Assembly: GCA_028689775.1 (NCBI GenBank)
Contig: JAQVCM010000004.1
Location: forward strand, 142,298 to 206,297
DNA from: Crocinitomicaceae bacterium
Lineage (GTDB): Bacteria; Bacteroidota; Bacteroidia; Flavobacteriales_D; Crocinitomicaceae
Direction: 5' to 3'
Length of the DNA: 64,000 nt
The notes below the pieces were generated by a model that saw only the letters and a list, made by a program, of their open reading frames with translations, was not told the DNA's origin and did not search any database. Of the stretch, positions 45,439 through 47,499 are shown in pieces; the first letter of the stretch is position 1; each line of letters opens with the position of its first letter. Position numbers and translations under genes: made by a program.

Positions 45439-45477
45439 AAAAAAAAGCCTCTCCTGACCGAAATCGAGAGAGGCTTT
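45439..45477 (-). terminator. Strong terminator of the riboswitch-controlled gene
   Basis: AAAGCCTCTC (45444-45453) pairs perfectly with GAGAGGCTTT (45468-45477); on the minus strand the stem is followed by a run of eight T. It lies 20 bp after the stop at 45497. Confidence 0.9.
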
Positions 45478-45496
45478 CTTGGGCAAGGTGTGTAAT

Positions 45497-47227
45497 CTAT
45501 TCTAAAATCAATTTTTGGGTCGAAATTCCATTGTTTTCACTTAGCAACTGAACGTAATAGAGTCCTTTTGGTAAATGAGAAATTTGAATATCTGTTGAAG
45601 TTGAAGTCGCATTGAAACTCATCACTTCTTGTCCGTTGATGTTGAAGATTTTACCGCCAATCAAAGAAGTTGATTCAAGGGTAATGAAATCAGTTGCTGG
45701 ATTTGGGTAAATCAACGTGCTGTTTGCTGTTAAATCAGCTAATCCTGCTGTTGAGCAACTAACAACTACAACTTGATTTTGTTGCGTAACATTTCCTGCA
45801 GCATCCGTGTAGAGCCAAACAAGTGTGTATGTTCCCGCTGTTGCATAGGTCAACGGACTTGTTGTAGTTCCTGTCAAAGCAAGATCGCAATTATCTGTCG
45901 CCGTTGGGAAATTTGTAATTGCTACATTGCACGCAATTTCTATGCTGGGTAAAGTCTGTACAGCAGCAACTGGAACAGAAACGTCGTGAACTTCTACTGC
46001 TTGCGTTTGCGTGACAGTGGTACCGTTATTTTCATAGGTCCAAGTTACTACATAATCACCTTGTACACTGTAAACAATAGGATCTGTTGTAGTCGCAGTA
46101 ATCGTTCCACCATTTGCTGTTGGTGCGGTAAGTGTTACTGAGCATTGACCTGTTGCGGTTGGCAAAGTTGCTAAATCTGGTGTTGGGGATTCGAACGTTT
46201 GCAAATAACATCTGTTTGGACTTGCAGCACCAGCAATCGAGCCAGAACCAATAACAGTAAAGGTCGTTCCATCAACCACTTCATAAGGAGCTGGGGCAAC
46301 AAACGCATCTGCAGAACAAATCACAAAATCACCTGTATTTTTATCCACATCAAAAGATCTTCCATAACCAAAAGACCAAGATCCACCAATCATAGTACTG
46401 GTATAAACTGGTGTCAATGGCAAAGTTGAAAGCGTTTGCGTATCGTAGATAAACAGTTGTTTGTTTGCCAATTTCCAGAAATACAGTTTTTGATTGTACG
46501 TTCTTAACAAACTCACGCCAGAAGTTCCCGTTACGACCGGAGTTCCGAGTGCATCGCCATTTAACACATCAATTGAAATCAACGTTCCTGTTCCGCTCAG
46601 TGCCCAAAGCTTTCCTCCTATTTCGTCGAAAACAATACCGGCAATCGTTCCAATCCCTGGTGTTATTACGCCTGAAACAGCATTGGTTACTGTATCAATT
46701 TTCACAATTTTAGCAGCAATTTGCACGTAAATCGTTCCGTTACCATATACCATGTTTTGCGTATTTCCGGAGAAATCATTGTTTGCATCAGCAACTGGTG
46801 TCATGGTATTATTAATCATGTCAACCAATTGAAATGATCTTGGATTTGTCATGTGCACGTACCCTTTTGTAGCACTTGCCATTGCCAACGTTTGTGGCGC
46901 GTTTGAAGTCGGAAAAGTATGAAGTGCGGTCAAATCTGGGTAGGAAGTAATAATTACACGTCCTACTCCGGATGGTTTTTCAATCATCAAGGCTTTGTTT
47001 CCGCAATAACCGAAATCTTGCAAAACATTTAGTCCGGCAGTGTTGTTGGTAGCTTGATAAACTCCAGCTATTGTTGTTGCAGGACTAACGGTTGTGTTAA
47101 TTCTAAAAACATCCGCGTTGGTTGATCCAAAGTTTCCTTCGGCAGCTACGTCCAGTTTAAAGGTTTTTTGACTGAAACCAATCCATGAGATCAGTAAAAA
47201 TGATAGGGTAATAATTTGTTGTTTCAT
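45497..47227 (-). CDS. T9SS-secreted beta-propeller protein under B12 riboswitch control (BtuG-like candidate)
   Basis: A 576-residue secreted protein: signal peptide (1-19), a YncE/DUF5074-like repeat region (about 20-350) with blocks such as [21 protein letters not shown] and [14 protein letters not shown] that suggest propeller blades, two HYR-like domains (about 355-495, each with a CSVTL or CNVAI strand) and a type A T9SS sorting domain (about 500-576, with [14 protein letters not shown] and [11 protein letters not shown]). A cobalamin riboswitch lies in its leader. In Bacteroides the B12-binding surface protein BtuG is a YncE-like propeller under the same kind of control; here the anchor is T9SS rather than lipid. 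B12 binding is inferred. Confidence 0.8.
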
Positions 47228-47276
47228 TTTATAAATGATTAAAATAAATAAAATGGAAAAACAATAGATTGGTCAA

Positions 47277-47290
47277 GTAGAGGCCTCTAC
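47277..47290 (-). other. Perfect palindrome in the riboswitch expression region
   Basis: GTAGAGGCCTCTAC is a perfect 14-bp palindrome between the riboswitch aptamer and the start codon. As RNA it could form a hairpin only in part, or pair with a second site; no T-run follows, so a transcription terminator is not supported. Confidence 0.55.
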
Positions 47291-47329
47291 CTGGACATTC
47301 TACTTTTTCTCCGAAAGCGAATTGTTTAC

Positions 47330-47485
47330 TCCTAGGCAGGTCTCCTGACTCAGTCCTTCAATCAGCCTTCCCACCAGCCCGGGGCTGACAGTGACATATT
47401 TGATTGAATATAGACTTTTACAGTTGCGGGAACAGTCTCTGATTTACACAGAGTTCCCTTTTAATTCACAAAGTGAAACCAAAAA
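47330..47485 (-). promoter_or_regulatory. Cobalamin (B12) riboswitch
   Basis: Read on the minus strand: the start GGGAACTC, then AATCAGAGACTG, TCCCGCAACTGTAA, a paired arm with GTCAC and the large stem around CAGCCCCGGGCTG, ending in the B12 box GAGTCAGGAGACCTGCC. The order and the conserved boxes are those of the cobalamin class. The limits are approximate. It controls the T9SS protein at 45497; about 100 nt separate it from the ATG. Because no terminator lies between them, translational control is more likely. Confidence 0.95.
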
Positions 47486-47491
47486 GCAGTG

Positions 47492-47499
47492 CAAAAGTA
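47492..47499 (-). promoter_or_regulatory. -7 element upstream of the riboswitch
   Basis: TACTTTTG on the minus strand, placed so that transcription would start at about 47487, just before the riboswitch. The -33 box is weak. Confidence 0.5.

Follow-up and report, generated by a model that had tools for sequence, protein, structure and literature searches.

The gene described here lies on the minus strand of a 64,000-nucleotide (nt) stretch of a Crocinitomicaceae genome (contig JAQVCM010000004.1, positions 142,298 to 206,297), which was analysed whole and is called the window below. It encodes a protein of 576 amino acids (aa) consisting of a putative signal peptide, a domain predicted to be a propeller like that of the B12-binding protein BtuG, an HYR/immunoglobulin (Ig)-like spacer and a sorting domain of the type IX secretion system (T9SS). 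The gene is preceded by a cobalamin riboswitch (Table 1). The RF00174 match covers all 189 model positions (1-189) with a score of 105.7 bits (gathering score 31.5 bits), and 90 nt separate its 3' end from the ATG at 47227. Directly 3' of the stop codon is a hairpin with a 14-bp stem and a U run behind it. Folding of a 73-nt stretch gave a minimum free energy of -21.8 kcal/mol (z -2.98); a pattern-based terminator scan did not pick up this hairpin. The hairpin and U run right after the stop codon suggest that the riboswitch-led unit is probably monocistronic, and the gene is ruled out as the start of an operon. The original prediction, a clear cobalamin riboswitch with a lone target gene, is borne out on both counts. 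The interval it covered, 45497..47485, has the stop codon at its left end, and its right end is 13 nt short of the riboswitch 5' end. The next gene downstream is on the same strand and, by reading of its open reading frame (ORF), we take it to resemble release factor 3.

Table 1. Coordinates of the features discussed (numbers without a prefix are positions in the window; those with a prefix are positions in the locus named)
Feature	Position	Strand	Basis
Cobalamin riboswitch aptamer RF00174, 5' leader of the gene	47318..47498	-	105.7 bits, E 1.9e-25
Coding sequence, 576 aa: predicted secreted propeller protein with T9SS tail, riboswitch target	45497..47227	-	ORF and homologues
Putative N-terminal signal peptide, residues 1-20, ending ..GFSQ, without lipobox	47168..47227	-	Inferred from the sequence
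Predicted BtuG-like beta-propeller domain, residues 23-335	46223..47161	-	AlphaFold2, fold comparison, profile matches
Loop residues 29-39, counterpart of the BtuG2 clamp loop Asn54-Thr64	47111..47143	-	HMMER mapping
HYR/Ig-like spacer region, residues 346-490	45758..46192	-	HYR_4C match and alignment
T9SS type A C-terminal sorting domain, residues 506-574	45506..45712	-	PF18962 3.1e-14, TIGR04183 4.3e-13
Intrinsic-terminator-like hairpin with U run	45441..45480	-	Folding energy and z-score
329-aa T9SS-tailed family member	L006:7970-8959	+	
nrdB-nrdA behind a riboswitch	L005:11635-14339 (contig C25)	-	ORF reading
Riboswitch of the 4HBT thioesterase gene	L007:14156-14347 (contig C43)		
4HBT thioesterase gene	L007:13500-13973	-	
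Broken family copy in G017	L052:8698-9720 (contig C31)	-	
Member of the 424-458 aa family	L110:6713-7987	-	
Member of the 424-458 aa family	L091:558-1847		
Member of the 424-458 aa family	L094:6772-8148	-	
Member of the 424-458 aa family	L108:6708-7988	-	
T9SS-tailed protein of repeated units	L090:590-2125	+	
Acido-Lenti-1 RNA family match	L038:15435-15481		46.8 bits

The sorting domain exceeds the cut-offs of both PF18962 (53.5 bits, cut-off 27) and NCBIfam TIGR04183 (49 bits, cut-off 23), and no lipobox is seen in the window protein; a T9SS tag in place of a lipid anchor, as originally read, is therefore upheld. A strict lipobox pattern in the first 40 residues was found in none of 54 members of the window family, compared with 43 of 120 listed relatives of the BtuG encoded in the same genome. 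A looser pattern was found in eight of the 54, all early in the hydrophobic core and with the window protein not among them, compared with 97 of the 120. Two HYR-like domains had been proposed. One HYR_4C domain is above the Pfam cut-off (residues 430-487), but the second unit, N-terminal to it, is visible in the alignment and reaches no Pfam cut-off. The number of Ig-like units, counted by eye in the alignment, differs among homologues from none to about four. The N-terminal 335 residues carry no Pfam name and have no NCBIfam match. The YncE/DUF5074-like region proposed there stands in part: Pfam finds no DUF5074 (PF16819) in the window protein itself, but five of 16 family members scanned match it at E up to 1, the L045 and L053 proteins exceed the cut-off, and the family profile finds BtuG structures.

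Searched against PDB sequences, this profile gives nine BtuG-type entries at about 1e-15. Seven of these nine best sequences (8bmy, 8p97, 8bmx, 8okv, 8bai, 3dsm and 8bn0) are BtuG2 or BtuG3, as identified from structure titles, PMC10404256 and PMC6143338; the other two are named only 'Surface layer protein' (8baz) and 'YncE family protein' (8puj). On these profile matches, the N-terminal 335 residues are homologous to BtuG. Comparing a structure prediction with BtuG had been suggested as a check, and the AlphaFold2 model of residues 23-335 has a mean predicted local distance difference test score (pLDDT) of 90.5 and a predicted template modelling score of 0.87. The solved folds nearest to it are BtuG1, BtuG2, BtuG3 and BtuK1. 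In its predicted fold, the N-terminal domain is a propeller of the seven-bladed BtuG kind.

In BtuG2, cobalamin is contacted by a clamp loop (Asn54-Thr64) and by Trp194, Tyr239, Trp272, Tyr316 and Tyr335 (PMC10404256). We mapped these contacts through a HMMER alignment, in which the numbering gives the named letter at each position. Across 54 homologues, the clamp-loop counterpart has E30, G31, G34 and D39 identical in every sequence, N32 in 52 and N37 in 50. Tyr316 corresponds to Tyr288 of the window protein, which is kept in all 54, and Tyr335 to position 309, which is Phe or Tyr in all 54. The three remaining contacts, Trp194, Tyr239 and Trp272, are in loops absent from the window family. 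Judged by the alignment, the BtuG-type pocket is therefore only partly kept: the clamp loop and two aromatics remain and three contacts have no counterpart.

There is an RF00174 match just upstream of the window-family gene in all 18 strong homologue loci. These are 13 loci from named genomes, those of G014, G017 and G028, the window, and G075 (L064); eight further strong matches share bit scores with counted loci and were treated as the same genomes. A one-off pairing of riboswitch and gene is ruled out, and a B12-related role now rests on more than one locus. Identity to the window protein is 24 to 60% over 15 aligned loci, and the hosts include, by record titles, Brumimicrobium, Taishania, Taibaiella and Flavobacterium subsaxonicum. 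The gene neighbours vary from group to group of homologue loci, and the constant partner of the N-terminal domain is therefore the riboswitch. A BtuB profile run over all ORFs of at least 150 codons found no transporter in the window and none adjoining the gene in 16 homologue loci; there is a match several kilobases downstream of the gene in L042, L050 and L051. Weak family matches in G008, G054, G076 and G119 (E 2e-11 to 5e-7) were excluded from the count of 18. No riboswitch was found within the 1.5 kb examined around them, and the match in G008 overlaps the BtuG of a riboswitch-led btuB operon. Two separate observations concern these loci. Record CP034120.1 (L042) carries the window gene family and is titled Glaciecola amylolytica, a gammaproteobacterial name; it seems to be identical with G110 of the Crocinitomicaceae, whose riboswitch has an equal score, and the title looks wrong. 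The locus of Brumimicrobium glaciale (L038) has a match to the Acido-Lenti-1 RNA family (gathering score 37).

The genome that holds the window has four cobalamin riboswitches. The absence of BtuB noted in the original prediction is true locally, but a search behind the other riboswitches, which had also been proposed, found a btuB-btuG operon, so that BtuB is not missing from the genome. This operon encodes a DUF4465 protein with a T9SS tail as its first gene, a BtuB-like TonB-dependent transporter, a BtuG-like DUF5074 protein that matches BtuG1 at 6.9e-59, and a 329-aa T9SS-tailed protein. The member of this 329-aa family that was scanned has no Pfam domain besides the T9SS tail, and the family recurs in riboswitch-led btuB or btuG operons of relatives. 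Another riboswitch leads nrdB-nrdA (names from ORF reading; the arrangement is also present in G010), presumably a B12-independent ribonucleotide reductase. A third leads a 4HBT thioesterase gene, whose product might, at a guess, relieve a build-up of acyl-CoA when a B12-dependent mutase is without its cofactor. The riboswitch-thioesterase pairing recurs in G003, G009, G011 and G014 and also, with the thioesterase gene by itself or behind others, in further genomes. The fourth riboswitch is that of the window gene. Additionally, the genome contains genes for PorU (1174 bits) and PorV (359 bits), three ORFs with a B12-binding domain, and 83 T9SS tails above the Pfam cut-off in 3.47 Mb. All 17 genomes that hold the window family (one with a broken copy) have at least two cobalamin riboswitches each, and 11 of the 17 have a match to this genome's BtuB at E up to 1e-15.

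We surveyed riboswitch-led stretches in 40 genomes, namely this one and 39 relatives. There was a match in 38 of them, and 52 riboswitches above the Rfam cut-off remained once two matches below it had been dropped. Same-strand ORFs no more than 180 bases apart were treated as one operon. The T9SS-tail profile was built from 21 tails, including two proteins of the btu operon described above, and Pfam confirmed the tail in the survey members submitted to it; the BtuB profile is based on 34 operon members that phmmer had detected. The stretch in G012 ends at a contig end, and the broken copy in G017 was counted as tail-less. A T9SS-tailed protein is present in 33 of the 52 stretches and is the first gene in 32. 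BtuB-profile transporters are found in 36 stretches, two of which (G013 and G033) had no phmmer match; 27 of the 36 also carry at least one T9SS-tailed protein and nine do not. DUF4465 proteins occur in 22 of the 52, and 20 of these 22 are T9SS-tailed. The T9SS route is thus not peculiar to the window gene.

One riboswitch-led stretch of Flavobacterium subsaxonicum (G174, via L048) encodes BtuB, a lipoprotein-like BtuG, a T9SS-tailed BtuG and a member of the 329-aa family. The T9SS-tailed BtuG (L152:4218-5501) is 427 aa long, matches DUF5074 (8.7e-16), PF18962 (4.4e-14) and BtuG3 (1.3e-33), and has retained more of the BtuG sequence than the window protein. In a tree it groups with the lipoprotein BtuG encoded beside it (98/88), and the pair falls outside the window family; fusion of T9SS tails to BtuG-type propellers has therefore likely happened more than once. 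Another family with T9SS tails (424-458 aa) comes first behind the riboswitch in G020, G029, G034 and G037. By eye it looks BtuG/BtuK-like and is possibly another propeller. An AlphaFold2 model built on four sequences has a pLDDT of 56.1, too poor for judging the fold; in the PDB, at E up to 1, the family's profile matches nothing but T9SS tails, and one member matches two BtuG-type chains weakly (E 0.84-0.86). A T9SS-tailed protein of repeated units also opens riboswitch-led btuB operons (L090, G003 and G018). Three units are seen by eye in the 511-aa forms, and the L090 member has no Pfam domain besides the tail.

Taken together, we think it probable that the riboswitch-led, T9SS-tagged, BtuG-like propeller captures scarce cobamides outside the cell and delivers them to the BtuB-BtuG system, whose genes are elsewhere in the genome. 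At low cellular B12 the gene would stay on under its riboswitch, and plentiful B12 would repress it; repression by B12 at a Bacteroides thetaiotaomicron locus is about 70-fold (PMC6143338). The signal peptide would take the protein across the inner membrane, and PorV and the T9SS, the export route predicted from its tail, would then receive it. PorU would then trim the protein and attach it to the surface, with the Ig-like domains as a stalk. Cobamides would be bound in the central pocket of the propeller, which would pass them to the BtuB-BtuG lid.

Several observations weigh against this. Hand-over to BtuB is the least supported part. Six of the 17 family-holding genomes have no match to this genome's BtuB reaching 1e-15; one of these, G028, has a more distant BtuB in its riboswitch-led operon, and in G169, G171, G172, G173 and G175 no BtuB was seen in the riboswitch-led stretches read. 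The hhalign match between the window family and a set of the BtuG type found in this genome is weak (probability 29%, E 6e-4); the set leans towards this genome's BtuG because it was drawn from the best 120 of 1358 matches. Three of the BtuG2 aromatic contacts are missing, as described above, and the window propeller has a net charge of -4 (values in 16 family members run from 0 to -35) in comparison with the strongly negative -18e of BtuG2 (PMC10404256). In B. thetaiotaomicron, BtuK2 failed to bind B12 despite its sequence similarity to BtuK1, a B12 binder (PMC12751083), and the propeller fold alone therefore does not settle B12 binding. The spread of the gene is also patchy: a strong match is present in 12 of 150 Crocinitomicaceae genomes, this one included, and in none of the four other listed genomes of the same genus. 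In G017 the copy is broken, though its riboswitch scores 113 bits, and intact copies of the gene are present in other genomes. The patchy spread and the broken copy show that the gene is dispensable.

The missing contacts and the weak charge would also fit a propeller that kept its riboswitch and lost cobamide binding, as BtuK2 may have, and that now helps cells short of B12 by other means, perhaps as an adhesin or by keeping hold of something that supplies B12, such as a producer cell or organic matter. Ig-like units are common in surface adhesion proteins. However, conservation across the 54 homologues covers the clamp loop and the positions of Tyr316 and Tyr335 but not the Ig region and tail, which are variable. 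This points to selection on the pocket face of the BtuG type, and we regard loss of binding as unlikely. Capture of cobamides might instead take place away from the cell, the same proposal with a different location, if the protein left the cell, into the medium or on vesicles, to act as a soluble scavenger of B12 or a shared store. Both release and attachment occur among T9SS type A cargo. In B. thetaiotaomicron, BtuJ proteins carried on vesicles deliver cobalamin (PMC12751083). The PorU sortase gene is present, however, and would permit attachment; release is a real but lesser possibility. It is improbable that the gene belongs to a wider low-B12 response unrelated to uptake, as may hold for the genes of the reductase, methionine synthase and thioesterase that other riboswitches lead. 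Two of the riboswitches in this genome do lead nrdB-nrdA and the thioesterase gene, and a riboswitch-led gene in relatives looks by its motif like metE, but these encode enzymes of cytoplasmic kinds whereas the window protein is a predicted extracellular homologue of BtuG.

Capture of B12 at the surface of Bacteroidota is known from the lipoproteins of gut species, and the T9SS is best known for enzymes and adhesins. We see about an even chance that non-gut Bacteroidota have a second display route for B12 capture, in which riboswitch-controlled modules with T9SS tags in place of lipid anchors, on the outer surface or leaving the cell, act alongside the lipoprotein BtuG that forms the lid on BtuB. 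The modules would be BtuG-type propellers, DUF4465 jelly rolls and perhaps further uncharacterised families, and the window gene would be the most independent form, free-standing and feeding BtuB in trans. If this is true, secreted proteins may allow environmental Bacteroidota to compete for B12, to store it or to release it, with consequences for B12 exchange in non-gut microbial communities.

A full-text search of open-licence PMC papers found no description of a T9SS-tagged protein that binds B12 or is led by a B12 riboswitch. In the same set, BtuG and T9SS occur together only in PMC12578637, and type IX secretion, vitamin B12 and cargo only in PMC13108260; type IX secretion and cobalamin riboswitch occur together only in PMC9723704, where the riboswitch precedes a TonB-dependent transporter. 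No paper combines DUF4465 with Flavobacteri or DUF5074 with cobalamin. DUF4465 proteins are known B12 binders (PMC12751083; PMC13398666), and the terms T9SS and type IX do not occur in the main text of PMC13398666. BtuJ1, BtuJ2 and other DUF4465 proteins are accessory B12 binders of riboswitch-led operons, a role like that proposed for the window protein, but they have a jelly-roll fold and not a propeller, and the B. thetaiotaomicron members are lipoproteins. BtuK1 (PDB 9s6c; PMC12751083) is, unlike the window protein, a lipoprotein within a btu operon, and it is more distant in sequence, falling outside the ten PDB matches of the window-family profile.

The closest comparison is with BtuG1, BtuG2 and BtuG3 of B. 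thetaiotaomicron (PMC6143338; PMC10404256), with which the window protein shares a homologous propeller, a cobalamin riboswitch, the clamp loop and two pocket aromatics. A lipobox cysteine and lipoprotein export signal are present in nearly all of 114 BtuG homologues, and btuG is found in 106 of 109 btuB operons (PMC6143338). The window protein, in contrast, has no lipobox and carries a T9SS tail and an Ig-like spacer, its gene is a single-gene unit not beside btuB, and the loops of three pocket aromatics are missing. In its C-terminal sorting domain it is like T9SS type A cargo (TIGR04183/PF18962). If it binds cobamides it would function as BtuG does, but without a lipobox and not beside btuB it is not classed as BtuG, and it is best described as a T9SS-displayed relative. 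What is new in comparison with the known systems is the T9SS route, the free-standing gene and the commonness of T9SS tags in the B12 regulon.
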